From assembly GCF_026151205.1 (NCBI RefSeq), contig NC_087075.1, positions 2,146,859 to 2,210,858 on the forward strand: a stretch of 64,000 nucleotides of DNA, given 5' to 3'. Position 1 is the first letter of the stretch. Each line of letters opens with the position of its first letter. This document shows, in pieces, positions 7,083 through 53,368 of the stretch. The position numbers and the translations under genes were made by a program. The stretch comes from Bolinopsis microptera (lineage: Eukaryota; Ctenophora; Tentaculata; Lobata; Bolinopsidae). A model generated the notes under the pieces. That model was not told the origin of the DNA, did no database searches, and was given only the letters and a program-made list of their open reading frames with translations.

Positions 7083-7199
7083 CTGGAATATGTTGCTGGT
7101 GAAGACATTGGACCATGTCTTGGAAGTGTTTTCTTAAGCAGATTGATAAAATTTTCAGGTTCAAACTGTATTATTTCATTGCGCCCTTTTGCAGTTTGA

Positions 7200-11782: not shown

Positions 11783-12310
11783 AGCATATAGGGTATCCAA
11801 ACCAATTTTTTTTGGCTCGGGAAATCGATTGGTGATGTCAATTTGACTCTCAGACCACTCCCTGATAAGATAACCACGCCCATATTCACAATCGAGCTTC
11901 AAAATTCCAAAAAATGTAAGTGATTTTCTTGGACAAATTGGGTGTCGAAACCAATGTTTTTTGGCTCGGGAAATCGATTGGTGATGTCAATTTGACTCTC
12001 AGACCACTCCCTGATAAGATAACCACGCCCATATTCACAATCGAGCTTCAAAATTTCAAAAAATGTAAGTGATTTTCTTGGACAAATTGGGTGTCGAAAC
12101 CAAAGTTTTTTGGCTCAGGAAATCGATTGGCGATGTATATTTGACTCTCAGGCCACTCCCTGATGAGATAACCACGCCCATATTCACAATTGAGCCTCAA
12201 AATTCCCATAAATTTAAGTGATTTTCTTGGACAAGTTGGGTGTTGAAATCGTTGTTTTTTTTGGCACAGGAAATCGATTGGTTACGTCTATTGCACGAAA
12301 ATGCCACACA
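11783..12310. repeat. Tandem repeat, about 149-bp unit, four copies
   Basis: GAAATCGATT recurs at 11820, 11970, 12119 and 12270, a period of 149-151 bp. Each unit also carries TTGACTCTCAG, AACCACGCCCATATTCACAA and AAGTGATTTTCTTGGACAA. The middle copies are nearly identical and the last is truncated and diverged. The array ends close to the 3' end of the broken gene at 12.4-13.8 kb. No open frame spans it. Confidence 0.85.
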
Positions 12311-19570: not shown

Positions 19571-19577
19571 ATTATTA

Positions 19578-19895
19578 GATAGGGAAGAAGCAAGATTTTG
19601 TTCAAAATTTAAAACTTTTGGGGATTCAATAGAATAGAAACTGAACGGTATTTGTAAATGTTTAGCCCCTTATTTATTTCACAGATAGGGAAGAAGCAAG
19701 ATTTTGTTCAAAATTTAAAACTTTTGGGGATTTAATAGAATAGAAATTGAACGGTATTTGTAAATGCTTAGCCCTTTATTTATTTCACAGATAGGGAAGA
19801 AGCAAGATTTTGTTCAAAATTTAAAACTTTTGGAGATTCAATAGAATAGAAATTGAACGGTATTTGTAAATGTATAGCCCCTTATACATTTCACA
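19578..19895. repeat. Tandem repeat, 106-bp unit, three copies
   Basis: GATAGGGAAGAAGCAAGATT starts at 19578, 19684 and 19790, an exact 106-bp period with few substitutions. Each unit ends in TTATTTATTTCACA or TTATACATTTCACA. An AT-rich palindromic tract (ATATATATTATATATATATT) follows at about 19955. Confidence 0.9.
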
Positions 19896-30020: not shown

Positions 30021-30521
30021 TGGAAGAGAGACAAATAGATCTTAAGGCTGAGCGTGAGTTTGAGACGAATTTAGCTTTCATTTTAGACTTCACGTCTCCC
30101 GAAATAAAACTGCGAAACAAAGTGAAACAAGGAACTAAGTAAACTGTAAACCCAAATTTTCGTCACGCAATGGACTTTCTCAAGGTTACACTGAAAAGGG
30201 GAGGTTTGATCTCTGAACCAGGAGAGTGTGGTAATTGGGTTAGGAAAGTAAACATACATGCGACAGAAGACAGGTTACCATTAGGAAGAAAATTTCAGCA
30301 AAAATTTATAGAACAAGGGGGTGTACACATCCATGCGAGGAAAAATCGGGTTACCAATAAGAAAAAATCACAACAGAGAAAGTTTACAAACCCTCAGATC
30401 AGCGGAGTAAAAGTGTACTAGAAATTAGTCTGTAAAACCGTTTCCACACATGTTATTGATTTTAGGTTTAGTGTGTTTCTATTGCTAAGCTCTTCTCTAT
30501 ATAAGGTATCTAAGGGTATCC

Positions 30522-30878
30522 TTACATTTGTTCTGATATGCTAAATTCGTAGTTGTTCGAAGGAATTTTGCTAAGTCCTCTTTTTTCCCGATATGGGAGT
30601 GTAGTGTGGGTCGTCTGCTCGCGGTGTTCAGCAGCGTGGTATCCAGTGTGGTCCTGCTGTTTGTTGAGTCGGAAGCTAGACTCGTGTTCGTAGATTCGAC
30701 CTCTAATAGGTCGTCTTGAAGCTCCTATGTACAGAGCTCCGCATTGCTTACATTTTGCTTTGTACACGTAGTGTCGGGTGGTACAGTTGGAATCTGCCTT
30801 GCAGAGTTCGCACTCGCATATCTCGTCTTTAGATGGTGTGCTGATGATCTCCTGACAGCATTTCCCCGCCTGTGTCAC
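30522..30878 (-). CDS. Penelope-like element, GIY-YIG endonuclease end
   Basis: A 118-codon frame with the cysteine motif CECELCKADSNC, then HYVYKAKCKQC and LYIGASRRP, then RGRIYEHESSF, matching the GIY-YIG core and its arginine. It is the C-terminal nicking domain of the element. Part of it is copied in inverted orientation at about 32990-33120. Confidence 0.75.
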   Translation of the reverse strand: MTQAGKCCQEIISTPSKDEICECELCKADSNCTTRHYVYKAKCKQCGALYIGASRRPIRGRIYEHESSFRLNKQQDHTGYHAAEHREQTTHTTLPYREKRGLSKIPSNNYEFSISEQM

Positions 30879-32151
30879 TACTTCTGGCGTTTATTCCCAG
30901 TTGCTTGATCGATGAGTTGACTCTCCTGGGTAAAGCTCTCGTTAATGTACGGTATCTTCAGGATAAGGGCGGGTTCTGGCCGGGTTCTCGGTGGGGTCGA
31001 GCTTTGTAGTAGACTTCTAGTCTCTCTAGAGCTTGTAACATTGTGTTTTGGGTACGACTTCTTTGGGATATCCGGAGTTTAACGATCAGGTGAGTTTTCA
31101 GTTTTCGAGGGTATGCCCAGCTGTCGTCCTTGTATTTGCAGTTGAGAACTATCCGCCTAGTCTCCGACCTGATGATGTTTGTTTTTGGTGACTAGACTAC
31201 AGTGTGAGTCGGTAATGCAAATATCTTCCAGAAGCCGTAGGTTTTTGGTAGTGAGTGAAAGATATTTCATTGTTCTCTTTTAGCTCAATGGGTGAGATCA
31301 AGGAAAATGAGCTTTCTATCGTTCTTGAGTTCGCTGGTGAAGTTTACATAGGTCCAAACAGAGTTCCAGATTGCTTTGAATTCCTCGAAGTCTTCGGCGC
31401 TTGACTTCCAGAGTAACCAGGCGTCGTCAACGGTACGTGGAAAGGTCACTCCGGCTTGTGGGTACTCTTTCTGCTGCTATATTGTAGGTGGTAGTCGACG
31501 ATGATTTCTGCGTATGCCGCTGAACTATGGGGACCCAGTGCCGAAATACCCTGTTTTGTAGGTAGGTATTTTGTCGCCTGCTTGATGTGTAAGTGTGGGT
31601 GTAGGACAAATTCGAGCATGGAGACAATATGTGAGGGCGAGAAATCCGTACAGGTTAATATTTTCTTTGTAATCTTCAATTGTACGATAGTATGACTTGT
31701 AAAGCTCTCTCGTCAGTGGGTAGAGTAGGGTACATGTTCTCCACATCAAGGATGCTTGGGAAACTGACACTACTGGTTACGGTGATGTTGTCAGGATAAG
31801 TGTTGCGGAGCTTAGTGAGAAAATCTTTTGTACTTTTGACTCGGTTTGGGGAGGAGCTGATTATTTGTATCAGTACTTTGCTCACTACCATGTCGAGTTT
31901 TTCTATAGCACTGTTGTTGATGAGGTTGTACTACTCGAACTTTGGTGTTGGGAAAGCTGGGCTTGTGATCCTTAGCCATTGGGTAGAGTTCTGGGGCCGA
32001 TGAGTAATTGCTTAGAACGTGTTTGATGGGGGGTTTCGTGACATCTATTCGCAAGATCTATGGCATATGTCGGTAAACAGGTTGTTTGCTGCTGTTTCGT
32101 ACTTATTAGTGGGATCTTCTTCTAATAGTTGTAGCAGTTTCTCGCAGGTGG

Positions 32152-33048
32152 TCAGCTAGCTTTTGCTCCACTAGTTCTTTCCATGATAGCAATATTGTTG
32201 GTTTTGTCGGTCAGGATAATCCGTACATTTTCCCGCGTTTTCGCCTCTGTTAGGCTCTCGAGATCTTCTTTAAGGTAGTTCCTGGGGATGTGTATCTTCC
32301 TCAAATCGTGTTTTAGGCCTTCCATGGAGCACTTAAGTTGTTTGATAGTCTCCTCAACAGGTGGTATGGCTTTTGGTGGGGGTGCGAGGTCCTTATCGAA
32401 TCTCGATACAACCTGTTTGAGGCTGAGTATAGTGTTTAGGTCTGGGTCTGGATTTCTCGCGGGGTTGGGAATACCGAACTCGTATGCAGGGTTGCTGTAT
32501 CGCATTGCTGCAATCATCCTCCATACTCCAGTCTGGAAATCTGTTTCCAGTTTTCTCCCATTGTCCGGAGAAATCTTGAAATTCCTTCCTTTTTCTAAGA
32601 TGTTGGTAGCTGCGTTGCTGTATGTGCTGGGGACAGTTACAATAACTCCAGAGCTCAGAGGGGCTTCCTCATTTGGGTTGTTGGTAGATTCTTCTGGGTT
32701 ATTAGCTTTGCTATCTCCTTGATCTTCGTGGAGGTTGGGTGTAGTCGATACATTGCTGTTTTCTGGTTTTTGACAAGCTGTTTTAATGATTTTGAGCTTC
32801 TTTTCCAGTTTTTGTTGTGACTCACACCTTTCTTTTTGGGTATGCTGTTCTATAACTCTGTTGATGTATCTGGTCTCTCGAGGTGAGGCTACACTGTGTA
32901 GCGTTTTAAGGGTGTGGTTAATCTCAAGGGTACATCTTTTAACTTCGAGGTATTTTTCATCGATTTCAGCTTTGAGGAAGAAACAATGTATGGTGTTCGT
33001 CACACAGGATACCACGCTGCTGAACACCGCAGAGCAGACGACCCACAC
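32152..33048 (-). CDS. Penelope-like element, N-terminal ORF part
   Basis: A 298-codon open frame. Its first 30 or so residues are read through the inverted arm and may not be native. The middle has a charged helical stretch (EIDEKYLEVKR to KLEKKLKIIK) followed by a Ser/Thr/Asn/Pro linker. The C-terminal part contains FQTGVWRMIAAM, LSLKQVVSRFDKD and ENVRIILTDKTNNIAIM, the last equivalent to the 'ADKGNATVV' region of the polymerase in the element at 0.6-3.1 kb. It belongs to the element described at 30060-33570. Confidence 0.6.
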   Translation of the reverse strand: MWVVCSAVFSSVVSCVTNTIHCFFLKAEIDEKYLEVKRCTLEINHTLKTLHSVASPRETRYINRVIEQHTQKERCESQQKLEKKLKIIKTACQKPENSNVSTTPNLHEDQGDSKANNPEESTNNPNEEAPLSSGVIVTVPSTYSNAATNILEKGRNFKISPDNGRKLETDFQTGVWRMIAAMRYSNPAYEFGIPNPARNPDPDLNTILSLKQVVSRFDKDLAPPPKAIPPVEETIKQLKCSMEGLKHDLRKIHIPRNYLKEDLESLTEAKTRENVRIILTDKTNNIAIMERTSGAKAS

Positions 33049-33570
33049 TACACTCCCATATCGGGAAAAAGAGACTTAGCAAAATTCTTCGAAAACTACG
33101 AATTTAGCATATCAGAACAATGTAAGGATACCTTAGATACCTTTATAAGAGAAGGCTTAGCAATAGAACACACTAAACCTAAAATCAATAACATGTGTGG
33201 AAACGGTTTTACAGACTAATTTCTAGTACACTTTTACTACGCTGATCTGAGGGTTGTAAACTTTCTCTGTTGTGATTTTTTCTTATTGGTAACCCGATTT
33301 TTCTCGCATGGATGTGTACACCCCCTTTTCTATAAATTTTGCTGAAATTTTCTTCCTAATGGTAACCCTGATCTTTGTCGCATGTATGTTTACTTTCCTA
33401 ACCCAATTACCACACTCTCTGGTTCAGAGATCAAACCTCCCCTTTTCAGTGTAACCTTGATAAAGTCCAATGCGTGACGAAAATTTGGTTTTACAGTTTA
33501 CTTAGTTCCTTGTTTCACTTTGTTCGCAGTTTTATTTCGGGAGACGTGAAGTCTAAAATGAAAGCTAAAT

Positions 33571-37898: not shown

Positions 37899-37995
37899 CT
37901 GTAGATCAACCCCTCTCTCTAGCAAAGTTTTCAAACTGCTGTTATCTGCTACTGTTGATGCATAGTGACTGCAAGTCCGACCATGAATATCAGGT
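37899..37995 (-). CDS. Putative ankyrin-repeat exon
   Basis: The minus strand gives PDIHGRTCSHYAS, then LKTLLERGVDLQ, ending exactly at a GTAATT donor (37893-37898). This matches an ankyrin repeat (D-x-x-G-R-T-x-x-H-Y-A ... LL-x-x-G-x-D). The acceptor at 37996-37997 lacks a good pyrimidine tract, and just upstream a 23-bp sequence is duplicated, so the 5' edge is uncertain. It may be a lone exon of a minus-strand gene or a decayed fragment. Confidence 0.45.
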
Positions 37996-38140
37996 CTTAT
38001 ATTAACACCTAATAGTGTCTTATATTAACACCTAATAGTCGTATAATATGTACTCATAAACAATGATAGTCCCAATTGTTTGTAATTGCTTATAATTTAA
38101 ACCTTCTTAGAGAGAGTCCTGCTTAAAGTTTCTGTTCCAG

Positions 38141-39907
38141 TGTCCACTACTATATCTGGTATGGTGTGTAGTATGGGGGTGGTCATCCTTACTCACTCTG
38201 CTATGGGTGAGGACCTACATCCTATGTCTGGCCTAGGCTTTGCGATTGTTACTCTAGCCACTATCGCTCAAGCTGCAACCTTCATACTTGTCAGGTAAAC
38301 TTGTTAATTCCTCTAGTTACGTCTGTATTTAAGATATTGTGCTTATTGATCCCCCTGCTTAGCGAGCTGCAATTCTCTGGATATCTATCACTCACCTAGC
38401 CCACTAGCCTAGGTATCCAAAGTATTTACTATAATTTTACCAGCTGTAAAACTTTACAGAGTCATTGATACCAATTAATTAACCCATTTCAGACAGATGA
38501 ACATCCACTTTGTAGTGCCGGTTTTCTATTTAGGCATTTCCAACACTCTCCTTAGTATACTGGTGGCAGGACCTCAATTATCCCTGGAGTCGCTCCGCAA
38601 CATACCTCTGGAACAGTGGGGCTGGCTTCTCCTCGTCAGTGGATTCGCTGTGACTGGTAGGTGGGGACGTTTGTGCTCGGATTTCAAAACCTTAGTATTT
38701 GATGCTACCAAGGATTTGGTGATGATTTAATTTTTAAAGATGACATTGTCTGAACCGAACTTGATTGAATTTTTGCACATACACCAATTAGTCAGTTGAT
38801 TGATGATGTTATGAAACCAAATTGAGGTACTGGAAGTCAAAATCTTCAAGGGGCCATATACTTAGGACGTCCGGCAAATAGGGAGGGGGGGTGGTTTTGG
38901 AATTCCGGACAAATCTGGACAGGGGGAGTGGGGTGAACGGTGGTTTCTGAAAATCCGGACGTCCGAAAATTTTGGCAGAATTAACGAAAAAGTCCCATCT
39001 TTGAATTTTATTTCAACTCTTTGAATTTTATTTCAACTCTTTAAATTTTATTTCAACTCTTTGAATTTTATTCACAATAAATTTGAGTTGATTGCATTTG
39101 TACTCTTAAAAGTAGCTGCAAATCGGGACGTCCGGGGGAGGGGTGGTCTGAAAATCTGCGATTTTGGCGGACGTCTTAAGTAGAAGGCCCCCAAGAAAAT
39201 TTCAAAATATTACTGTCCCATTTTCTGTCCCATTTTCAGTTTTTGAAGATGAAATTTCCACTTTCCAGGACCAAAATTTTACAGTTTTGACTGAATTTCT
39301 CACCCGCAACCAATTAGTCAGTCAACTATGAATGCCATATGACAAGATTGTGGTGCCGGAAGTTTTATTTCGGTCGGAGGAAGCCCACAGCAGAAAGCTT
39401 AACAACACGTCACACGAACATTTTTCCCAATTTCTGTCCCATTTTCAGACATGAAAATTTCTGAACACAAATATGACAGATTGGATGAACTTTTTGCCCA
39501 GAAACCAATTCGTCAGTTAATTGATGATGGTATGAAACCAAATTGAAGTACCTGAAGTCTGTATACTATACAATGTATACGTATAAACTCGATCGAATAC
39601 CAAAACCTTTCCTCAAACAGGAAGTTTCACACTGAACGTGGGCTTACAACATGAACAAGCAGCTATGGTAGCTCTAATCAGGAATGTGGACATCGTCATA
39701 GCTTACATCTTCGACTTCCTGATCTTCAAGCACAGTTTCTCTGCGATGTCACTGTTCGGAGGTGGACTGGTTATCCTAGCCACCATAGGAAGTGGACTTG
39801 TAAGTCTACTCCAAGAGACGGACTACAAGAAAGTTAGATGTGATTCTGTCAACCTTGAAAGTGAAGCAACGTTAGCCGCTTCAAGAGACGGACTACAAGA
39901 AGGTTAG
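38141..39907 (+). CDS. SLC35G/EamA-type membrane transporter, C-terminal exons
   Basis: Exons 38141-38294, 38493-38656 and 39621-39907 join in frame (phases 1, 2, 1) with donors GTAAAC and GTAGGT and acceptors TTCCAG, TTTCAG and AACAG. The translation has paired hydrophobic helices and the EamA signature near the end: LQHEQAAMVALIRNVDIVIA, then GGGLVILATIGSGLV. Drug/metabolite-transporter family proteins of this type are ten-helix membrane carriers; this covers roughly the last five or six helices. The first exons were not found, and the GPCR gene occupies the space upstream. The last 28 codons lie in a 70-bp tandem array, and the present stop (39905-39907) is created by the second repeat unit. 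Confidence 0.75.
38764..39560. repeat. Diverged direct repeats filling the last transporter intron
   Basis: Stretches at about 38764-38850, 39290-39375 and 39480-39560 share ACCAATTAGTCAGT-type text followed by ATGAAACCAAATTGA or a decayed form and then GGAAGT. They are three copies of an unidentified 90-bp sequence, with the inverted-repeat element between the first and second. Confidence 0.55.
38849..39193. mobile_element. Small inverted-repeat element in the transporter intron
   Basis: Left end GGGGCCATATACTTAGGACG and right end, read inverted, GGGGGCCTTCTACTTAAGAC share about 24 bp including GACGTCCG. The inside has G-rich tracts repeating GACGTCCG and a 20-bp tandem (TTGAATTTTATTTCAACTCT, four copies at 39001-39068). 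No protein is encoded. It is likely a non-autonomous DNA transposon. Confidence 0.6.
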
Positions 39908-42900
39908 ATGTGATTCTGTCAACCTTGAAAGTGAAGCAACGTTAGCCGCTCCAAGAGACGGACTACAAGAAAGTTAGATGTGATTCTGTAAACCTTGAAA
40001 GTGAAGCAACGTTAGCCGCTCCAAGAGACGGACTACAAGAAAGTTAGATGTGATTCTGTCAACCTTGAAAGTGAAGCAACGTTAGCCGCTCCAAGAGACG
40101 GACTACAAGAAAGTTAGATGTGATTCTGTAAACCTTGAAAGTGAAGCAACGTTAGCCGCTTCAAGAGACGGACTACAAGAAGGTTAGATGTGATTCTGTC
40201 AACCTTGAAAGTGAAGCAACGTTAGCCTCTTCAAGAGACGGACTACAAGAAGGTTAGATGTGATTCTGTAAACCTTGAAAGTGAAGCAACGTTAGCCGCT
40301 TCAAGAGACGGACTACAAGAAGGTTAGATGTGATTCTGTCAACCTTGAAAGTGAAGCAACGTTAGCCTCTTCAAGAGACGGACTACAAGAAGGTTAGATG
40401 TGATTCTGTAAACCTTGAAAGTGAAGCAACGTTAGCCTCTCCAAGAAACGGACTACAAGAAGGTTAGATGTGATTCTGTAAACCTTGAAAGTGAAGCAAC
40501 GTTAGCCTCTTCAAGAGACGGACTACAAGAAAGTTAGATGTGATTCTGTAAACCTTGAAAGTGAAGCAACGTTAGCCGCTTCAAGAGACGGACTACAAGA
40601 AAGTTAGATGTGATTCTGTAAACCTTGAAAGTGAAGCAACGTTAGCCGCTCCAAGAGACGGACTACAAGAAAGTTAGATGTGATTCTGTAAACCTTGAAA
40701 GTGAAGCAACGTTAGCCGCTCCAAGAGACGGACTAAAAGAAAGTTAGATGTGATTCTGTAAACCTTGAAAGTGAAGCAACGTTAGCCTCTCCAAGAGACG
40801 GACTACAAGAAAGTTAGATGTGATTCTGTAAACCTTGAAAGTGAAGCAACGTTAGCCGCTTCAAGAGACGGACTACAAGAAAGTTAGATGTGATTCTGTA
40901 AACCTTGAAAGTGAAGCAACGTTAGCCGCTCCAAGAGACGGACTACAAGAAAGTTAGATGTGATTCTGTAAACCTTGAAAGTGAAGCAACGTTAGCCGCT
41001 TCAAGAGACGGACTACAAGAAAGTTAGATGTGATTCTGTAAACCTTGAAAGTGAAGCAACGTTAGCCGCTCCAAGAGACGGACTACAAGAAAGTTAGATG
41101 TGATTCTGTAAACCTTGAAAGTGAAGCAACGTTAGCCTCTCCAAGAGACGGACTACAAGAAAGTTAGATGTGATTCTGTAAACCTTGAAAGTGAAGCAAC
41201 GTTAGCCGCTTCAAGAGACGGACTACAAGAAAGTTAGATGTGATTCTGTAAACCTTGAAAGTGAAGCAACGTTAGCCGCTCCAAGAGACGGACTACAAGA
41301 AAGTTAGATGTGATTCTGTCAACCTTGAAAGTGAAGCAACGTTAGCCGCTTCAAGAGACGGACTACAAGAAGGTTAGATGTGATTCTGTAAACCTTGAAA
41401 GTGAAGCAACGTTAGCCGCTTCAAGAGACGGACTACAAGAAGGTTAGATGTGATTCTGTCAACCTTGAAAGTGAAGCAACGTTAGCCTCTCCAAGAGACG
41501 GACTACAAGAAGGTTAGATGTGATTCTGTCAACCTTGAAAGTGAAGCAACGTTAGCCTCTCCAAGAGACGGACTACAAGAAGGTTAGATGTGATTCTGTC
41601 AACCTTGAAAGTGAAGCAACGTTAGCCTCTCCAAGAGACGGACTACAAGAAGGTTAGATGTGATTCTGTAAACCTTGAAAGTGAAGCAACGTTAGCCTCT
41701 CCAAGAGACGGACTACAAGAAGGTTAGATGTGATTCTGTAAACCTTGAAAGTGAAGCAACGTTAGCCGCTTCAAGAGACGGACTACAAGAAGGTTAGATG
41801 TGATTCTGTCAACCTTGAAAGTGACGCAACGTTAGCCGCTCCAAGAGACGGACTACAAGAAAGTTAGATGTGATTCTGTCAACCTTGAAAGTAAAGCAAC
41901 GTTAGCCGCTTCAAGAGACGGACTACAAGAAAGTTAGATGTGATTCTGTCAACCTTGAAAGTGAAGCACCGTTAGCCGCTTCAAGAGACGGACTACAAGA
42001 AGGTTAGATGTGATTCTGTAAACCTTGAAAGTGAAGCAACGTTAGCCTCTCCAAGAGACGGACTACAAGAAAGTTAGATGTGATTCTGTCAACCTTGAAA
42101 GTAAAGCAACGTTAGCCTCTCCAAGAGACGGACTACAAGAAAGTTAGATGTGATTCTGTCAACCTTGAAAGTAAAGCAACGTTAGCCTCTCCAAGAGACG
42201 GACTACAAGAAAGTTAGATGTGATTCTGTCAACCTTGAAAGTGAAGCAACGTTAGCCTCTCCAAGAGACGGACTACAAGAAGGTTAGATGTGATTCTGTA
42301 AACCTTGAAAGTGAAGCAACGTTAGCCTCTCCAAGAGACGGACTACAAGAAGGTTAGATGTGATTCTGTCAACCTTGAAAGTGAAGCAACGTTAGCCTCT
42401 CCAAGAGACGGACTACAAGAAAGTTAGATGTGATTCTGTCAACCTTGAAAGTAAAGCAACGTTAGCCGCTTCAAGAGACGGACTACAAGAAAGTTAGATG
42501 TGATTCTGTCAACCTTGAAAGTGAAGCACCGTTAGCCGCTTCAAGAGACGGACTACAAGAAGGTTAGATGTGATTCTGTAAACCTTGAAAGTGAAGCACC
42601 GTTAGCCGCTTCAAGAGACGGACTACAAGAAAGTTAGATGTGATTCTGTAAACCTTGAAAGTGAAGCAACGTTAGCCGCTTCAAGAGACGGACTACAAGA
42701 AGGTTAGATGTGATTCTGTCAACCTTGAAAGTGAAGCAACGTTAGCCGCTTCAAGAGACGGACTACAAGAAGGTTAGATGTGATTCTGTCAACCTTGAAA
42801 GTGAAGCAACGTTAGCCGCTTCAAGAGACGGACTACAAGAAGGTTAGATGTGATTCTGTAAACCTTGAAAGTGAAGCAACGTTAGCCGCTTCAAGAGACG

Positions 42901-44704
42901 GACTACAAGAAGGTTAGATGTGATTCTGTAAACCTTGAAAGTGAAGCAACGTTAGCCGCTTCAAGAGACGGACTACAAGAAGGTTAGATGTGATTCTGTC
43001 AACCTTGAAAGTGAAGCAACGTTAGCCGCTTGAAGAGACGGACTACAAGAAGGTTAGATGTGATTCTGTCAACCTTGAAAGTGAAGCAACGTTAGCCGCT
43101 TCAAGAGACGGACTACAAGAAGGTTAGATTTGATTCTGTCAACCTTGAAAGTGAAGCAACGTTAGCCGCTTGAAGAGACGGACTACAAGAAGGTTAGATG
43201 TGATTCTGTCAACCTTGAAAGTGAAGCAACGTTAGCCGCTTCAAGAGACGGACTACAAGAAAGTTAGATGTGATTCTGTAAACCTTGAAAGTGAAGCAAC
43301 GTTAGCCGCTTCAAGAGACGGACTACAAGAAGGTTAGATGTGATTCTGTCAACCTTGAAAGTAACCTTCTTGTAGTCCGTCTCTTGAAGCGGCTAACGTT
43401 GCTTCACTTTCAAGGTTGACAGAATCACATCTAACCTTCTTGTAGTCCGTCTCTTGAAGCGGCTAACGTTGCTTCACTTTCAAGGTTGACAGAATCACAT
43501 CTAACCTTCTTGTAGTCCGTCTCTTGAAGCGGCTAACGTTGCTTCACTTTCAAGGTTTACAGAATCACATCTAACCTTCTTGTAGTCCGTCTCTTGAAGC
43601 GGCTAACGTTGCTTCACTTTCAAGGTTTACAGAATCACATCTAACCTTCTTGTAGTCCGTCTCTTGAAGCGGCTAACGTTGCTTCACTTTCAAGGTTGAC
43701 AGAATCACATCTAACCTTCTTGTAGTCCGTCTCTTGAAGCGGCTAACGTTGCTTCACTTTCAAGGTTGACAGAATCACATCTAACTTTCTTGTAGTCCGT
43801 CTCTTGAAGCGGCTAACGTTGCTTCACTTTCAAGGTTTACAGAATCACATCTAACCTTCTTGTAGTCCGTCTCTTGAAGCGGCTAACGTTGCTTCACTTT
43901 CAAGGTTTACAGAATCACATCTAACCTTCTTGTAGTCCGTCTCTTGAAGCGGCTAACGTTGCTTCACTTTCAAGGTTGACAGAATCACATCTAACCTTCT
44001 TGTAGTCCGTCTCTTGAAGCGGCTAACGTTGCTTCACTTTCAAGGTTGACAGAATCACATCTAACCTTCTTGTAGTCCGTCTCTTGAAGCGGCTAACGTT
44101 GCTTCACTTTCAAGGTTGACAGAATCACATCTAACCTTCTTGTAGTCCGTCTCTTGAAGCGGCTAACGTTGCTTCACTTTCAAGGTTGCCAGAATCACAT
44201 CTAACCTTCTTGTAGTCCGTCTCTTGAAGCGGCTAACGTTTTAAAAAAAAACCTTGAAAGTGAAGCAACGTTAGCCTCTCCAAGAGACGGACTACAAGAA
44301 AGTTAGATGTGATTCTGTAAACCTTGAAAGTGAAGCAACGTTAGCCGCTTCAAGAGACGGACTACAAGAAAGTTAGATGTGATTCTGTAAACCTTGAAAG
44401 TGAAGCAACGTTAGCCTCTCCAAGAGACGGACTACAAGAAAGTTAGATGTGATTCTGTAAACCTTGAAAGTGAAGCAACGTTAGCCTCTCCAAGAGACGG
44501 ACTACAAGAAAGTTAGATGTGATTCTGTAAACCTTGAAAGTGAAGCAACGTTAGCCGCTTCAAGAGACGGACTACAAGAAAGTTAGATGTGATTCTGTAA
44601 ACCTTGAAAGTGAAGCACCGTTAGCCGCTTCAAGAGACGGACTACAAGAAAGTTAGATGTGATTCTGTAAACCTTGAAAGTGAAGCAACGTTAGCCGCTT
44701 CAAG
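39811..44704. repeat. 70-bp minisatellite grown from the transporter's coding 3' end, with an inverted block
   Basis: A unit starting CCAAGAGACGGACTACAAGA repeats every 70 bp, about 70 times. Units 39811-43362 read forward (about 51), 43363-44239 read inverted (about 12.5), and about 44250-44704 read forward again (about 6.5). The first unit encodes DYKKVRCDSVNLESEATLAA of the transporter. The last ends GCC GCT TCA AGT TGA, which would be the original in-frame stop. Copies differ at a few recurrent sites (AAGTT/AGGTT, TGTC/TGTA, CCGCT/CCTCT). The join at 44240-44250 is an A-run. CAAG at both outer edges suggests duplication through short homology. Confidence 0.95.
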
Positions 44705-46960
44705 TTGAGAATAACTTTGTGGTGCTGGTTTGGTAGATATGTGGTCAGAGACAAGCTAATCATTAGAGACAAGCTAATCATAGGAGACAATCGAATCGCA
44801 ATTTTAATTCTATCCATTAATAATATTTGTAAATTCCGTTTCTTTTGCCAAATAAAACGACTGATATCAAATTTTCATAAATAGTTTTAACATTATTATA
44901 TTGATGATAATATTGACAAAATGTCCTGTATACTTTTGGCTATGAACGTAACGATATTTACAATGAAAATAAATCCTTCATCCCTAATGAACACAATCAC
45001 TGTAAATGACTTTACCTTACTCCATATAAACTCTGGTAAGGAAATAATATCATAAAATGAATAATATTAGAATTCGATAATAATGCCTAAGGAAATTCCC
45101 TAAATTGAATACCGCTTCAGACTAATTGGTTTAATGGATGACGGTACCAATGAGAAAATGAGAAATATAACGTTGAGAACTCAGCTCAGATGTTTGCAAT
45201 AACCTTAGTTACCATAGTTTCCATAACCATAGTTACCATAACCATAACCATAACGTTACATAATATGACTTATGAAATTAAATATTATTTTATTAAATGA
45301 TTATTTTAGACTGCAGATGTGAAGGGAATATTATCGTCATTTTCTCATGGTTTTTAATTTCCGTCATCTATTTTTCGATATGATTTTAGCGCCTAATATA
45401 GCTAATATTTTTAATTTAATAATATCACAATCTTACCCATTAAGATATTTCGACTGGAAACTTATTTCTGATTTGACTAATCATTATATTTATTGCTTTG
45501 AATAACATCGTTTTGAATTCATCAATGCATTATTTCGATTCTTGGGTTTCTAATATTTAACATGACTATAACAGGTAATAATTACATTATTTATAAGAGT
45601 TTCTTGACGAAAATTTGATAGCTAGAAACCTAACACGTAAACAAACTCTAAACTCTAAGCTCTTTCCATCGATCAGTACATATAATAATAATAACTAAAT
45701 AATAACTAAATATCTCCGACATGAATTATTCCTGGGAACAACAAATTGTAAAAAAAATTAAAATCAAACGCAACCCAACCTATATTGAAACCAACTACAT
45801 ATAATCTTAGCTATTTCAAAATAATTCGTATGTAACAGACGGATCGAGCACTATTTAAATATAGCTTGTTGCTCAATAAGTGACTGTTCACATTTACGAT
45901 ATGTCACGTTTAAACGGTGTGTTAGAACAGGTCCTTCTCCAAAAGGCTATTGACCTTCTTTCAATCTTACAGTAACTATTACAGTTAAACATGATACGCA
46001 TAAGTAATGACTATTCAAAACATGCTTCGTTAAAAAATGACAAATATAAAATAAAGCCATAAAAAGAATCCAGCTCGGCCAATCTTAGGATAATTATAAA
46101 ACTCATAATGTCTCATTAACTCAATTATAATTTATAATCTATCAACTAATAATAATCGATGTTAACAATTAGTGCTAATTAGTGCTAATTATGCTAGCAG
46201 TAGAAAGTCAGGGCATCTTGTTGGTTGCCACGCAACATGAGGATGGGTGATAAGTTGTTAGACATCACTTCCAACCAAGACATGTATTTTTGTGGAGGTG
46301 TGCTGTCACGGGGTACCGGCAACGTTCTGAGGAAAGTGAAATGTCAACGCTGAGATGATACCAACTAAACAGTAAACACCTTGAAAACAAGAATTTCGCC
46401 GCGGTTACACCACGCACGATCGATTTTCCCTACAATTTTAGGCCTGCAGAACTTGAAAGATTCTGCGTGCATTTTAAGTGTTGTCGTCGACATAATGTGT
46501 TTAAGAAAGTCACACGTGACAGTCGCGATTAGACTGTAGAGTCTCCCTTCGGCATTCGCACACCAAATAAAACAGAATAGTTTGTTACGCATCTGAATAA
46601 AGCTCTTTTTTTTTTATTAAATACTTTTCAAATTTTACAGAGTACAGCAATAGATGAATATAAAATAGAATCGTTCAAAATATCGCCCCCATCTGTAAAA
46701 TATGATGGGCACCCAAACACGGTAAACACATAGTGAACTATGTCCGCAGTAACTTGGACCCATTACATCGAATTAATCTAAATCCAAAAATTTATGAAAA
46801 ACTATTTAATAACAAACAAATCCATGGTGAATAACTGTGGATATATAGTCAAAATTGGTATTTCAATACGTCAAATTCCAGATACATTAGATACAGGTCT
46901 GATATGGTCATTAATGTGTGAGAAGGTGTGCGGGTGAAGTGTGATATGACGTTGAAAGAA
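44705..46960. other. AT-rich intergenic DNA; old polyadenylation signal
   Basis: AATAAA at 44851 lies 147 bp after the array and was probably the transporter's poly(A) signal before the array grew. A short ATAACC/ATAGTTACC tandem lies at about 45208-45255. A 75-codon minus-strand frame at 46365-46592 has no recognised family. No other feature can be supported. Confidence 0.4.
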
Positions 46961-46974
46961 TAGGAAGGTAGATA

Positions 46975-47620
46975 AAAATTAATAAAACAAAATAATAATA
47001 ATATGGGGAGCAGAGAGACTAGGCTAGACTGTTGTTTCACTATCCAATAAACATTTCCATAGATGCTTAGTGACCGCAGCTTTGAAAAGACTAGTAGACA
47101 CAATCTGTCTTACTTGTAAAGGGAGTCCATTCCACAGTATGTGGGTTCTGTAGAAAAATGATTTTGCCAGTGGGCTATTTGAGGTACATATGGTGAGTGA
47201 ATTCTGACTTAACTTAGGTAAAATTGATGACACAATAGACAGACTGTCGAGGTGGCAACGTCTTAGTCGAGAAGTGCCCTGATATAAAGAGAGATAGTGA
47301 GGCAGCGATACAGGAATTAAATTGTTCAGAACTTTGTGGAAAAAAATAAGATCATTCAAGTCAAACTTTTGAGACAAAGGGAGAATGTCGACAAGCTTGC
47401 ACTTTTTGACATATTGCTCAGGTGGATAACTGCGGCCCTCTTCAGACAGAATCCATTTAATAGCTCTCTTTTGGAGACTTTCTAATTTATCACTAAGTGA
47501 TTTATTACAAGGGCGCCAGATTATGGAACAATTTTCGAATTGGCTACGAACTAGGGAGAGGTAAAGCGCCCGGCGACGTTTCAGATCAATGACAATATGG
47601 CCATCTCTTCTGACCATACC
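46975..47620 (-). mobile_element. 5'-truncated LINE, reverse transcriptase C-terminal part
   Basis: A 197-codon minus-strand frame (47617-47024) reads RALYLSLVRSQFENCSIIWRP, LESLQKRAIKWIL, LVDILPLSQKFDLNDLIFFHK, and ends with NGLPLQVRQ. This is the C-terminal tail of a jockey/CR1-type LINE ORF2, without polymerase motifs. An ATT-rich tail at about 46990-46975 would be the 3' end. It differs from the LINE fragments at 26 kb and 60 kb, so it is another family. Confidence 0.8.
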
Positions 47621-47725
47621 AAGTTGTTGGCAGGTTCAATAATCAGCAGAGCGAACTTCGAAGTACTGATTTCAATAATCGTGATTCAAGCACTGATTTC
47701 AATAATCGTGACTCGTGGAAGTGAG

Positions 47726-48125
47726 TTGTCGTCAGTCAATTGCTCAACTCGCCCTGGAGTCTCTATCCCGCTCTGGTCGTTTTTCTGAGCACCCAATCAG
47801 ATGGGAGAGCAACTTTCGGTTAATCTTCATTGGCTAAGCTGCCTGCTATATAGCCAAGAAAATTGTCAAAATTGTCAAAATTGAGAATTATGACCCGCCC
47901 TCATTTCAATAAAAAAGGAGGAGTTACTGGTGAGTAGATACCAGAGCTAGAGAGACAACTATTTTTATCTACCAATGTCGTCAATCAACGCTCCCTGGAG
48001 CATATATTTCTGTCTGATCTGGCGGCTTCATTATTTTATAATGATTAAATTCATTATATTATATCTCCCAATCAGATGGGAGAGTTCATTCCGGTCAATC
48101 TTTATTGGCTAAGCTATAGTATAAG
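47726..48125. repeat. Diverged direct duplication upstream of the LDLa receptor
   Basis: GTCGTCA(G/A)TCAA ... CCCTGGAG and CCCAATCAGATGGGAGAG ... ATTGGCTAAGCT occur at about 47726-47850 and again at about 47976-48125. The copies are roughly 85% alike and 250-275 bp apart. ATTGG (CCAAT box on the other strand) occurs in both, so a promoter role is possible but unproven. Confidence 0.5.
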
Positions 48126-48298
48126 TATTCGCGTTCTGCTAAAGTGCTAATGCCGATTGCCGGTGTTAGCTGCTTTTCGGTCGCATCTCGTCGCTTCGTA
48201 ATCAACTTCAACTTTAGTAAGGCTGTCTCAGAGACAGTATATCAGAGAAATTAATATCCCGTTAAGGTCAATCTTTCTCCGTTGTCCGAAAACTTAAA

Positions 48299-48422
48299 TT
48301 ACAGCTGCAACTTCCCCAAATGGGGCTTAAACTTGTAAATTAAGCCCCATTTGGGGAAGGGAAATGGCCGCGGTAAATCGGGGTTTGCGGTTATCGGGGC
48401 GCGATAAATCGGGGTTTTATAT
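48299..48422. mobile_element. Hairpin-bearing pogo/Tigger-like small element before the receptor
   Basis: Perfect 19-bp arms (48311-48329, CTTCCCCAAATGGGGCTTA, and 48341-48359) surround an 11-base loop. Downstream, TAAATCGGGG occurs twice, the inverted form of the CCCCGATTTA end motif seen near 37.5 kb. The element ends about 45 bp before the receptor's ATG, so it may form part of its leader or promoter. Confidence 0.5.
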
Positions 48423-48466
48423 ATTTGTGGTAATATTCTTACGAATCATATTCTAGGCACGATAAT

Positions 48467-50764
48467 ATGAGACTACTCGTTCTGGTAGGGCTGCTGACTT
48501 TTGTCTGTTCTGAGCTTGGTAATGAAGCACCAGAGGTAATGAAACTACCTCATCCCCTCTCAATACTGAACCTCACGGCCTGGGATAGAATCACACAATC
48601 AACCCAATTCCTGCTAACGGCACCCGGACTAGCTCAAAAGAAATTCGAGCACACAATCTGCAATGACTTTGTCTTTGGGGAAATAGCGTCATTAATCGCG
48701 GTACGGGATAACTCCATTAAATACAGATTCTGGGATATTGATCAATTTACGGAGGCAAGGGAGGGGAAATCCTTTTCCGGATACAAACTTTGCTACTACG
48801 GGAACTTCAATGTGTCAGGTTTACTGCGAGCAGGTTGCGTACTACCAGTAAGTCAGATGTGCAACAATTACTCATCCTGTCTAACGGACGAGTGTCACTG
48901 CGGCACCGAGACTTTCCTTTGCGCTGATGGTGATGGTTGTATTTCTTTGCAGCAAGTTTGCGACGGAAGAGCACATTGTAAGGACTACAGTGACGAATGT
49001 GCTTGTCAAGATTTTCTAACTTGCAAAAAGTTGCCCAGTTATAATCAGTCACAAGCAGAATGCTACATAGAGCCGGACTGCTTAAAGGCAAACTATGCGG
49101 CAGAAAAATTTTATGATGATTTAAAAACTTGGCAAGATGAAGATGATATAAGTATTGGACAGATATCATTAGATCCCAAAAAGGTTGAGCAATGCATAAT
49201 GGATAGTACCTCAATCAGCTCTCACTGTAAAAGAATTAATTTGCATCATAAACTACAAGGAGCAAACTACCCGACGTACAAATGCGAAAACAAGTCTTAC
49301 AGTAACATCCAAAGTGTGAGCCACAGCGACGGACGGAGGAAGATGGTATTCTGTGACCGTATTCAGCACTGTGAGAACGGTATTGATGAGCAGGACTGCC
49401 CAGACACGTTCTACTGCAAGTCAGACAACAAGCCCATCCCAATTAACATGACATGTGACTCAGTTTCAGATTGCTCGGATTCCTCTGATGAATGCAACAA
49501 TTGCACCGCTACCTCCTTCCTCTCCTCCCAAGATAATCTGATAAGTGGCAGAGTGCTTCCTTACGTGGTTGCAATTCAGATGGCTTGCATATTAGTCCTC
49601 AATATATATGCAATCTACCATCATCTGAATACATATGACTCGACTGCGAAGGCAGCATTCAGGGTTGACAAGATTCAGTGCATAGTACTCGGTGGATATG
49701 ACTTACTAATCGCCGTCTACCTCGCCACAATTGTAGGAGCCAACTTTGTCTACGATGGTGAGTACTGTCTATTCGATGTGTACTGGAGATCCTCCATGGT
49801 CTGCAGATTTGCGGGGACAATCCTCTTCGCAGCTAGTCAAGGTGCGCTGCAGGTATCTGTAGCAATGAGTATCTGCCGGTGTTTCACCTGTCTTAATGGC
49901 CTGTCCGGCAGGGAGATCACCATGTCCGGGTTCATGGCGGTCTTCCCCCTGGTTAACTGTGTCAATATTGCCAGAGCTTTTGCACCGTTTTTGGCAGCAA
50001 TAACCGTGTTGTCTGAGTGGGCTGAAATATTCATTCATGAACATTTGTTTACTGGAAATCCTCTCATTACAAGAGGTAAGAAATTAGATTTAGCGAGGAT
50101 GGTGACTGCTTACAAGCGCATTTCTTTCGATGAAACTTCCTCCATGTCCACCAAGAAACTTTTAGAGGAACTGAGCAGTATGACCTCCAACGGCGGAATC
50201 TTTGCTCCAGACAGGATCACATCCATTGGGTTTTACGGAAAATCGTCCATGTGCTACCCTGACTTATTCACAAACGAACGAGTCATGCTAGGCTACAAAA
50301 TCTTCTACATAATAGAAAGCTGCCTGTATCTGACAATCATTATGACATGCTACCTTCTGATCTGTCGTCAGTTTATAAAATCTCGAGCACAAGCACGACC
50401 AACCAACAGAGCGGAGAATGAGTCTAATGACCAGGTTTTCTTTCTATCTCTGAAGATATCCCTGGTGATCGGATCCCAGCTGGTATGTTGGATCCCCGTC
50501 AATGTTGCAATCATTGGGAGCTTCTTCGACTGGTCCATTCCATTCTTGGATACTGACACTTTGATTGGAATTGTTGTCCCGATCAATTCGTTGATAAACC
50601 CCTTGATACATTGCAAGCCGATATATGACTGGGTGACAGGGAAGATCGCAATACTGAAACGTGAAATGATATCTTGGATTAACTCAAGAAGAATTAACAA
50701 CAGGGTTGCAGAGATGGAGATGCAAGAACGTACTAGTAGTAATGTTGTTGCGCCTATCATGTAG
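48467..50764 (+). CDS. Seven-transmembrane receptor with LDL-receptor class A ectodomain, intronless
   Basis: One 765-codon frame. Residues 1-18 look like a signal peptide (MRLLVLVGLLTFVCSELG). The ectodomain to about residue 360 is cysteine-rich with three LDLa-type modules: about 143-178 (CDGRAHCKDYSDEC), 273-311 (CENGIDEQDC) and 315-343 (DSVSDCSDSSDEC); the acidic SDE motifs bind calcium in this family. A seven-helix domain follows from about 363. Helix 6 has CWIP and helix 7 NSLINPLIH, both class A features. The second extracellular loop is very long (about 90 residues). It resembles GRL101/relaxin-receptor-like receptors but has no leucine-rich repeats. Ligand unknown. The ATG at 48467 opens the signal peptide. 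An alternative 3' exon may exist at 51464. Confidence 0.9.
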   Translation: MRLLVLVGLLTFVCSELGNEAPEVMKLPHPLSILNLTAWDRITQSTQFLLTAPGLAQKKFEHTICNDFVFGEIASLIAVRDNSIKYRFWDIDQFTEAREGKSFSGYKLCYYGNFNVSGLLRAGCVLPVSQMCNNYSSCLTDECHCGTETFLCADGDGCISLQQVCDGRAHCKDYSDECACQDFLTCKKLPSYNQSQAECYIEPDCLKANYAAEKFYDDLKTWQDEDDISIGQISLDPKKVEQCIMDSTSISSHCKRINLHHKLQGANYPTYKCENKSYSNIQSVSHSDGRRKMVFCDRIQHCENGIDEQDCPDTFYCKSDNKPIPINMTCDSVSDCSDSSDECNNCTATSFLSSQDNLISGRVLPYVVAIQMACILVLNIYAIYHHLNTYDSTAKAAFRVDKIQCIVLGGYDLLIAVYLATIVGANFVYDGEYCLFDVYWRSSMVCRFAGTILFAASQGALQVSVAMSICRCFTCLNGLSGREITMSGFMAVFPLVNCVNIARAFAPFLAAITVLSEWAEIFIHEHLFTGNPLITRGKKLDLARMVTAYKRISFDETSSMSTKKLLEELSSMTSNGGIFAPDRITSIGFYGKSSMCYPDLFTNERVMLGYKIFYIIESCLYLTIIMTCYLLICRQFIKSRAQARPTNRAENESNDQVFFLSLKISLVIGSQLVCWIPVNVAIIGSFFDWSIPFLDTDTLIGIVVPINSLINPLIHCKPIYDWVTGKIAILKREMISWINSRRINNRVAEMEMQERTSSNVVAPIM

Positions 50765-51463
50765 ACATATGTTGTGAAGTGACACACTATATTACAGTAG
50801 CAAAAGATCCAGGAAAAATCTGGATCGCATATGATTTGAAGAAAGGATTAGATCGTTATTACTTAGATCGTGCTGACTGTTGACTGCTGTGGATATGTAT
50901 CTGACTAGCTATAAAGTAACTAACTATAAAGCTCTATCAATGCGAGTGACAGCTGAAAGTTAAGGATATTTACTTTTAAATTGTTTGGGATTGTTATTTT
51001 TGTTGTTGATTTGCTTACGTTATTTGCTACTTTTATCATGCTGACTGTACTGCCTAATTTTTATTTTTTTGGTTCTTTTAGAATGGGTTTTGTCTGCTTG
51101 TGTCCACGGTGAAACGAATCTGATAAAATACTAAGTCTTCTAGAGCAGTTTAACCAGTAAACCGAGTAGCCAAAGTAAGAAGAACAACTCCACTCCAACT
51201 CTTTGCAGTTACCACATCAGTTTATATTCCAGTTTAACCACAATCCCATGTCATATGCGCATAATATGATATATATTAATTTACCACTATCGGCTACCAC
51301 TAGACCCCCCATAATCTCATAAAACGAACGGCTTTGATCGTTAACCATCACAGTGTTTGAACCTTGCTCTTTATTGTCATCTTGGTGGTTACATTATCAT
51401 CCGACATGCTGCAGTTCGGGATTTTTTAGCTTTCATGCTTAACACAGAATGTTCATTGTTCAG

Positions 51464-51561
51464 ATGTTGAGATCGAACCTCCGCTTCAAGAACTGGAAGG
51501 AGAACAGTTCACGAGGTCCTCAACACTTACGGGTGATCAGGCAATGGTAGAAAAAAAATAG
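51464..51561 (+). CDS. Candidate terminal exon encoding an acidic C-terminal tail
   Basis: After the acceptor-like GTTCATTGTTCAG (51451-51463) a phase-1 frame reads VEIEPPLQELEGEQFTRSS and on to DQAMVEKK and a stop. The composition looks like a cytoplasmic tail. It lies 700 bp past the LDLa receptor on the same strand. A donor-like GTAATG in that receptor's last codons (about 50740) has the right phase, so an alternative receptor C-terminus is conceivable. Splicing is inferred from sequence only. Confidence 0.3.
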
Positions 51562-51671
51562 AATACACAATTAGTACCACTGGATCTATCTGAAGGGACA
51601 GTAAACATAAACATGTCACCTGTAGATGACTATGAGAATCTCGCTCTAAAATGAAAGAATTTAGAACTTAC

Positions 51672-51800
51672 AGCACTATAAGCTGAGTGTCTACGGTGGT
51701 TTTGTCCCTCAGCAACTCTCCCATCCTAATATACTGTTTCGTCTTAGCATCAATTTGTTCTGCTTCTTCTGCTGGCTTGTACTTCATGTAGTCGTCAATA
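51672..51800 (-). CDS. Candidate internal exon of an unidentified minus-strand gene
   Basis: The minus-strand segment has acceptor TTCTCTTTCAG (51801-51811) and donor GTAAGT (51666-51671). It is 129 nt, phase 2-2, and fully open: IDDYMKYKPAEEAEQIDAK, then QYIRMGELLRDKTTVDTQLI. The composition is that of a real charged, helical protein. GELLRDKTTVDTQLI loosely recalls adenylate-kinase-like proteins but that is not enough to name it. Neighbouring exons were not found; the gene would run left past the receptor or be antisense to its 3' region. A 58-bp tandem array starts two bases inside its upstream intron. Confidence 0.5.
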
Positions 51801-51802
51801 CT

Positions 51803-52324
51803 GAAAGAGAAAGTTTTAGTTAAAACAATGTTCAGACTCGTATATAGTGCTATCTAGAGAGAAAGAGAAAGTTTTAGTTAAAACAATGTTCAGACTCGTA
51901 TATAGTGCTATCTAGAGAGAAAGAGAAAGTTTTAGTTAAAACAATGTTCAGACTCGTATATAGTGCTATCTAGAGAGAAAGAGAAAGTTTTAGTTAAAAC
52001 AATGTTCAGACTCGTATATAGTGCTATCTAGAGAGAAAGAGAAAGTTTTAGTTAAAACAATGTTCAGACTCGTATATAGTGCTATCTAGAGAGAAAGAGA
52101 AAGTTTTAGTTAAAACAATGTTCAGACTCGTATATAGTGCTATCTAGAGAGAAAGAGAAAGTTTTAGTTAAAACAATGTTCAGACTCGTATATAGTGCTA
52201 TCTAGAGAGAAAGAGAAAGTTTTAGTTAAAACAATGTTCAGACTCGTATATAGTGCTATCTAGAGAGAAAGAGAAAGTTTTAGTTAAAACTATGTTCAGA
52301 CTCGTATATAGTGCTATCTAGAGA
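51803..52324. repeat. 58-bp tandem repeat, nine copies, abutting a splice acceptor
   Basis: GAAAGAGAAAGTTTTAGTTA starts at 51803 and every 58 bp to 52267, exactly nine units with almost no differences. On the minus strand each unit contains TTTTAACTAAAAC (branch-point-like), a CT-rich tract TTTCTCTTTCTCTC and TAG. The unit nearest the exon supplies the exon's own acceptor. The near-identity points to recent expansion. Confidence 0.95.
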
Positions 52325-52459
52325 GAAGATCACAGGACTTTCAGCCGGATATCCGGTCACAAGCATGATATATTGTGAAGTGAACTGATAGGAGCTTGCA
52401 GTGAATCGAAATCTAGCGTCTGCCACCAAATAAAATGGGTGCAATTCTCGTCGAGAAGT

Positions 52460-53295
52460 GGGGGGGGGGGGGTCAACCTCATTTTACCTCATTTTACCTC
52501 ATCCCAATTTTGCCTTTTTTGGCTGGCCTCATGAGGTAAAATGAGGTAAATTTCGGCAAAAATTTTTAACACGTAAAATTCTCTAAATCGTCAATTTAGT
52601 CACGAAGGAGTATGGAAGGAGTTCTAAATGTGTGCTCCTCTAATATAAACAGTAGGAAATGGTTAACTTTAGTCGAGGTCTCAGGTCTCTACAATGTCGG
52701 AAAGTTCCTGCAGGAATTTGGGCATTGCGCTTGAAGCGCAAGATTCACAGTGAATCTTGCGATTTAGATAATTTTACCTGTTAAAAATTGGTGAAAAATA
52801 TGGGCGTGGCCCAAGTCAGTATTATACGAAACCGTAGACACAAAAAATTGTTTGGTTGTTCCTGATCCTATAAAGCAACTAATTAGAGGTGATATCTAAT
52901 TATTTGAACGAAAAGTGGTTTTGTGAACCGCCCTTTATTCTATAGCGAATCATGAACATTGAACATGTACATAAGAACTTAGAATTGTATGAAGTATGAG
53001 TTTATATGAGTAATTTGTTATGAAATGACCTTTCACTATGCATTTTCGACTAAATTCATGTAGATATCCAATCCAGTTCCATGCACAATTGTTGTTTACA
53101 TCAACATGGGAGACCATGCACAGCCTCGAATTATAGTATTAGTATAATGACTTCCAATAAACCTTTTTTGTTTCTAAAAAAAGGCTTAGAAAACTAGATT
53201 TATTTACCTCATTTTACCTCATCCCAATTTTGCCTTTTTTGGCTGGCCTCATGAGGTAAAATGAGGTTGACCCCCCCCCCCCCCCCCCCCCCCCC
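52460..53295. mobile_element. Non-autonomous element with G/C-run ends and repeated hairpin unit
   Basis: The left end is a G-run then TCAACCTCATTTTACCTCAT; the right end is its inverted form, ATGAGGTAAAATGAGGTTGA, then a C-run of about 25 (53271-53295). An 80-bp block with ATTTTGCCTTTTTTGGCTGG in its middle occurs near both ends (52474-52551 and 53203-53268) in the same orientation, and each block is itself an inverted repeat of ACCTCATTTTACCTCAT. No coding sequence was seen between. Class unknown. Confidence 0.65.
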
Positions 53296-53368
53296 TTCTT
53301 ATTAACTCATTTTGATGACTGTGTCTGACCTAAAATTGCACGAGAAATAGATAAAATTATGCGTCAGA

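Follow-up and report, generated by a model that had tools for sequence, protein, structure and literature searches.

An insertion in Bolinopsis microptera, bordered by a probable transposon, carries a truncated transporter gene copy and a 70-bp minisatellite with a two-unit counterpart

Minisatellite birth is usually reconstructed from end products. An array of 70-bp units, the first of which is also the end of a transporter coding exon, raises the question of whether a working gene had its coding end multiplied in place, with displacement of its stop codon, or whether the array grew in a displaced fragment of the gene. The array was analyzed within a stretch of 64,000 nucleotides (the window), part of contig C4, and the whole genome (264.65 Mb, 232 contigs) was searched for related loci. 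Matches fell almost entirely on C1 to C13, in agreement with the 13 chromosome-scale scaffolds described for the species (PMC10232365), and among solved structures the best relative of a glutamate-receptor protein of the genome is chain ML032222a, from the comb jelly Mnemiopsis leidyi. Positions refer to the window, unless a contig is named.

The 70-bp array, the gene copy and its sister locus

Tandem Repeats Finder describes positions 39812–44704 as about 69.8 unit lengths with 97–99% matches, in three rows of one 70-bp unit, corresponding to a forward, an inverted and a forward block. The gene copy and the blocks are localized as follows.

38110–38294, + strand: exon 1 of the EamA transporter, truncated; homology to C5 begins at 38110, mid exon
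38493–38656, + strand: exon 2
39621–39907, + strand: exon 3, running through unit 1, with a TAG in unit 2
39812–43362, + strand: 70-bp array, forward block 1, 50.7 units
43362–44240, - strand: 70-bp array, inverted block, 879 bp, 12.6 units as reverse complement
44241–44248, + strand: 8-bp filler at the right inversion junction
44249–44704, + strand: 70-bp array, forward block 2, 6.5 units, without G21 and C39
44851–44856, + strand: AATAAA, also present in C5, 176 bp 3' of the C5 stop

Its many, highly similar units, tens of bp long and arranged head to tail, make the array an ordinary minisatellite, with an unusual inverted block. A preliminary description had recognized the array, the identity of unit 1 with the end of a transporter coding exon, a frame shift with a stop in unit 2, and the ending of the last unit with an AATAAA at 44851. 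All of these were found again: exon 3 runs through unit 1, the TAG lies at 39905–39907, and the last unit reads GCTTCAAGTTGA. The inverted block, the 8-bp filler and the start of the gene copy in mid exon 1 had been missed.

The transporter matches EamA only in Pfam ("SLC35G-like" being the label of the preliminary description), and no relative was found among solved structures. The window copy lacks the start codon and the first half of exon 1, and a single EamA stretch is matched; exons 2 and 3 feature intact splice sites, the frame is open to the stop codon at 39905–39907, with a C-terminal end reading ...TLAASRDGLQEG, and the AATAAA is kept. Both introns are present, which rules out a processed pseudogene.

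The same site, with both flanks homologous, occurs on the minus strand at C5:7468688–7468834, where it measures 147 bp and holds two 70-bp units; the unit number of two loci of one genome thus differs, 2 against about 70. The C5 gene is intact, with three exons, 324 codons and two EamA stretches, and its protein ends in the second 70-bp unit (TLASPRDGLQES).

C5:7470641–7470118, - strand: exon 1 of the C5 gene model
C5:7469912–7469749, - strand: exon 2
C5:7469022–7468736, - strand: exon 3

Exon 1 of C5 contains 114 more codons than the truncated exon of the window; this missing 5' coding part, searched alone, has a single match in the genome, on C5. Upstream of it lies a repeat, which gave 944 candidate places when included in the query. 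Since the start codon and the first half of exon 1 are absent, the window copy probably makes no transporter. The 177 codons shared with C5 show five differences, four amino-acid changing and one silent, a pattern compatible with the absence of constraint, although too small to prove it.

The two-unit gene of C5 already stops in its second unit: the frame shift and early stop are therefore common to both loci and older than the explosion of the array. If the stop moved at all, the shift would belong to an older duplication, common to the C4 and C5 loci and predating the explosion. Of the earlier interpretation, an explosion of the coding 3' end that displaced the stop, the origin of the unit from the coding end is retained, while the displacement by the explosion is not. 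The far end of the array, which had been described as a capping, is the plain right flank, identical in kind to that of C5, so that no special event is needed. The last unit might preserve the original stop, although no one-unit copy of the site, with a stop after AASS, was found in the genome.

No third close copy of the site emerged from the genome when the right flank and the exons served as queries, the remaining right-flank matches being short and all within one simple stretch. A diverged relative on C7 matches in the exons; the 70-bp unit is absent from it and its tail is different, too diverged to be aligned with the unit, so that it was discarded as an outgroup for polarising the changes. 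The reading of the two loci as allelic haplotypes, instead of a duplication, was rejected: they lie on separate multi-megabase contigs, C4 and C5, and their homology breaks off sharply at 38110 and about 52459.

The insertion and its probable transposon

Both of these limits coincide with borders of an insertion. With positions 37960–38200 as a query, scores were obtained for 40 out of 63 candidates: the window, C5, whose match starts at query position 151 (38110), and 38 others, all ending at query position 150 (38109). In the two of the 38 that were read further, L048 and L049, the equivalent of 38109 runs straight into the equivalent of 53294, and the sequence CCTTCTTA, found on both sides of 38110–53293 in the window, is present once. 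The empty sites being continuous across the junction, 38110–53293 is an insertion into a dispersed repeat on C4.

38102–38109, + strand: left target-site duplication, CCTTCTTA, inside a dispersed repeat at about 38005–38109
38110–53293, no strand assigned: insertion of 15,184 bp, with CCTTCTTA on both sides; empty sites L048 (C11) and L049 (C1)
38110–52459: carried block of the insertion, left of the transposon
48467–50764, + strand: receptor-like open reading frame with LDL-A repeats, also carried; a 7tm_1 match falls just under the Pfam cut-off
51803–52327, + strand: 58-bp array, 9.1 units; eight of the nine full units are identical
52460–53293, + strand: 834-bp probable transposon; inverted ends on both sides, G(n)TCAACCTCATTTTACC
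53294–53301, + strand: right target-site duplication, CCTTCTTA, its first two C possibly belonging to a C run

The duplication measures 6–8 bp, as two of its eight bases may come from the transposon's C run. Since the window contains CCTTCTTA three times, a number expected by chance, the weight of the duplication rests on the empty sites. Given these, a simple segmental duplication without a mobile element was set aside.

The transposon ends consist of a variable G run followed by TCAACCTCATTTTACC, in inverted orientation, and on the right the insertion stops precisely where the transposon does. A 25-base end pattern has 145 exact occurrences genome-wide, 71 and 74 per strand. Among the matches listed, facing pairs are frequent, often about 2.5 kb apart, and some ends are solitary; the distance between the facing ends listed ranges from less than 100 bp to more than 13 kb (for example C5:13296358–13310007). 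An identical flanking repeat of at least 4 bp is found in three of six transposon pairs (4, 6 and 5 bp, the last being 8 when three bases of the C run are counted) and in none of the other three. The window transposon has no common repeat at its own two edges: the partner of its right flanking repeat is found 14.35 kb leftward, at the other side of the carried block.

The left end of the insertion, GAGAGAGTC, agrees with G7TC at six of nine bases, a value reached at 0.56% of the positions of the C5 stretch, and at 12 of 26 bases in a longer comparison, reached at 1.3% of positions. This likeness speaks, weakly, for a transposase acting on a cryptic left end rather than for gap repair. No donor carrying the transposon at its right edge came to light: the transposon is missing from the matching place in C5 and in one C6 copy, so that the block perhaps stems from another allele or locus. 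Further copies of the receptor-like reading frame are located on C5, C6 (two) and C8.

The window and C5 also differ by three pieces of about 1 kb. About 1.03 kb of extra sequence (C5:7463098–7464128) splits the C5 copy of the receptor-like reading frame, which in the window is open over 765 codons; another 1.1 kb or so (C5, about 7466999–7468141) is found at the place of window position 45270. About 1 kb of the window (46606–47645) is absent from C5, and contains a 197-codon reading frame, possibly part of a reverse transcriptase, which it resembles.

Growth and inversion of the array, and comparable units

C4 and C5 diverge at 187 of 7374 sites, or 2.5% (six aligned blocks, arrays excluded; 0.96% to 3.55% per block). 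Unit statistics are based on the 67 units of exactly 70 bp; four partial end pieces are excluded, together with the last unit, which was cut along with four flanking bases. If all 67 units dated from the split of the two loci, about 59 private changes would be expected, against 10 observed states absent from C5, which indicates that the array grew after the split, or that its units were homogenised. Four sites are variable at high frequency: 21 (A/G, 31/36), 39 (C/A, 32/35), 67 (G/T, 49/18) and 70 (T/C, 43/24); rare states are found at eight further sites. Nine of the 67 units correspond exactly to the second C5 unit, and 15 carry T67 with C70, like the first. Both unit types of C5 being present in the window, two units probably predate the split, and a two-unit ancestor of both loci would be the simplest reading. 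Growth of the array from few copies is most likely, judging from the two units of C5; a contraction in C5 from a longer array is improbable, though just two copies of the site are known.

Neighboring units tend to be alike. In forward block 1 (50 full units) the mean difference between neighbors is 1.78 sites, below the value of every one of 10000 shuffles (0/10000). Higher-order blocks were not detected there: the longest recurring run of identical unit types is two, not above most of 2000 shuffles, and likeness of neighbors alone is significant as a signal of order. G21 and C39, both widespread in the array and absent from C5, are missing from all six units of at least 70 bp in forward block 2, one of which carries the rare state C58. 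Sharing these absences with C5, forward block 2 looks like the least changed.

Unit phase reaches 51–53 at the end of forward block 1, runs from 57 to 25 in the inverted block, and resumes at 39 in forward block 2. When the inverted block is re-inverted on paper, the 70-bp register is restored, 3–5 bp being lost at one junction and 13–15 bp at the second. Random phases would, as estimated by hand, fit this well in about 5% of cases (about 1 in 20), so that a simple two-break inversion of 12.6 units is favored, although not proved. Among the literature matches listed, no title or opening of an abstract deals with inverted blocks within minisatellites.

Two other units of the carried block differ in copy number between related loci. 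The 58-bp unit, nine-fold in the window, is single-copy in C5 and in one C6 copy. The second C6 copy does not contain the exact 58-bp search string; the two pieces of it that do match share 61 bases of overlap, like those of C5, which indicates one unit there as well. The 63-bp unit is single in the window (51155–51221) and in C5, and is expanded on C6, to 5.1 units on one copy and 3.1 on the other.

C6, near 14731090–14731392: 63-bp expansion, 5.1 units
C6, near 5760900–5761073: 63-bp expansion, 3.1 units

A model of Haber and Louis (1998), as cited in PMC4232551, places minisatellite birth between direct repeats of 5–10 bp. The unexpanded 58-bp unit, in C5 and in one C6 copy, is located between GAA repeats (3 bp, below the cited range), the 63-bp unit, in the window copy, between CAGT repeats, and the 70-bp unit between CTCCAAG and CTTCAAG, known only around two or more units. 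Short direct repeats are thus seen at the edges of all three units, in unexpanded sequence for those of 58 and 63 bp, and would agree with a slippage or unequal-exchange model of minisatellite birth. As in the cited outline of that model, units of tens of bp would arise from unique sequence with short direct repeats at the edges; here, unexpanded sister copies are found in the same genome, and the repeats are exact over 3–4 bp or, for the 70-bp unit, extend over 7 bp with a single mismatch. Among the papers found on ctenophores and minisatellites, no title or opening of an abstract treats this subject.

Proposed history, alternatives and related systems

The window copy is most likely a pseudogene fragment, carried off as a truncated passenger, whose two units grew to about 70. 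A two-unit end like that of C5 would have arisen when one unit was duplicated in tandem, probably between CTCCAAG and CTTCAAG. A piece of the locus, cut in mid exon 1, would then have been placed in the dispersed repeat on C4, within a 15.2-kb insertion having the 834-bp transposon as its rightmost part. The block may have been carried by the transposon in either of two ways: its transposase may have paired the right end with the cryptic left end GAGAGAGTC, similar to the G(n)TC of true ends, or an excision gap may have been filled from a transposon copy adjoining the block. Once the fragment was freed from selection, slippage or unequal exchange could have raised its two units to about 70, 12.6 units being inverted later; a second unit, of 58 bp, is nine-fold in the window and single at the sister loci. 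As a whole, this sequence of older duplication, transposon-linked carriage, expansion from 2 to about 70 and inversion is considered quite probable; the fact that longer multi-unit blocks do not recur in the array counts against it, as do the missing donor with a transposon at the right edge and the identical flanking repeat in just three of six transposon pairs.

The alternatives overlap, and exclude neither each other nor parts of this history. The strongest competitor concerns the carriage: the block may have moved by repair of a double-strand break with template switching, the flanking repeat being a filled-in overhang and the transposon being copied along by accident. The left end is no known transposon end, and no donor with the transposon was seen, both of which favor such an event; it nevertheless has to account for a right boundary placed at the exact outer end of a transposon having both its ends, and is rated as possible, though the less probable course. 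A misassembly is harder to reconcile with the data. A single assembly underlies both the array length and the inversion, one junction contains an A-rich filler, and wtdbg, TGS-Gapcloser and pilon were used for the B. microptera genome, according to the available text of its paper (PMC10232365), so that unit number and inverted block might stem from chimeric or gap-filled long reads. Yet, neighboring units are alike beyond chance, the re-inverted block regains its 70-bp register with losses of 3–5 and 13–15 bp (about 5% by random phases), and the window contains no N: an artefact is judged unlikely.

A long ancestral array, contracted to two units in C5, is rated slightly lower still, as improbable. 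Parsimony cannot fully polarise the change with two copies of the site; against a contraction, the common states G21 and C39 are absent from C5, private changes in the array are few for the age of the block, and the 58-bp array, single at the sister loci, is an example of gain in one copy at this very place. Least credible, and very improbable, is a working gene whose coding end turned into a long 3' UTR array that moved the stop. Exons 2 and 3, their splice sites, the frame open to 39907 and the AATAAA are all kept, as such a gene requires; but the start codon and the first 114 codons are absent and their sequence is found on C5 only, the two-unit C5 gene already stops in unit 2, and four of five coding differences in 177 codons alter the protein, giving no sign of constraint, few as they are.

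A more general reading, plausible enough to be mentioned and held only tentatively, would have the G-run family repeatedly carrying off neighboring kilobases via cryptic G-rich ends, the freed fragments nursing minisatellites of 58–70 bp from short stretches bounded by repeats of 3–7 bp.

The components have known counterparts. Like the VNTR of human carboxyl ester lipase (CEL), the array is a tandem repeat in a last exon whose frame sets the C-terminus; in contrast, its 70-bp unit does not consist of whole codons, so that reading ends within the second unit, and the copy is truncated. Pack-TYPE transposons of plants (PMC8903248) are likewise non-autonomous inverted-repeat elements associated with gene pieces, held between the two inverted ends of one element; in the window the cargo, 14.35 kb, lies outside the 834-bp element, and its left end has no clear inverted repeat. 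Yeast CUP1 arrays (PMC4232551) share tandem duplication from a single copy and junctions with little homology, and differ in having gene-sized units. The available text of PMC13317346 deals with retrotransposon transduction only.

While the kinds of elements are ordinary, the likely before-and-after pair of loci and the transposon-bordered insertion make the locus an unusually clear natural experiment. One small family of duplicated loci contains three units in both unexpanded (1–2 copies) and expanded (3 to about 70) form, with edge repeats visible, which provides a datable setting for the study of how repeats begin, in an early-branching animal. With 14 kb of host DNA relocated to the side of a small transposon, the insertion is also a clear example of such a move, and the locus cautions that an apparent gene with a tail of repeats may turn out to be a truncated passenger.

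Arrays of other periods were surveyed with thresholds of period at least 20, at least 2.5 copies and score at least 150, in stretches that are no random sample. At these thresholds many further arrays are present in the stretches of C4 (94 kb) and C5 (69.5 kb), and none in that of C7 (9.9 kb), in four receptor loci of about 3.3 kb and in one 4-kb C5 stretch. Other arrays of the window are found at 3213–6331 (units of 298–468 bp), 11791–12282 (149 bp) and 19577–19895 (106 bp); on C4, to the right of the window, L017 contains an 82-bp array at about 5075–8847, with 46 units and 99% matches. Finally, nested inverted repeats at 30116–33524, around a reading frame at 32152–33048, look like another inverted-repeat element.

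30116–30221 with 33419–33524: inverted repeat pair, 97%
30389–30477 with 33167–33255: inverted repeat pair, 99%
30222–30320 with 33321–33419: inverted repeat pair, 78%
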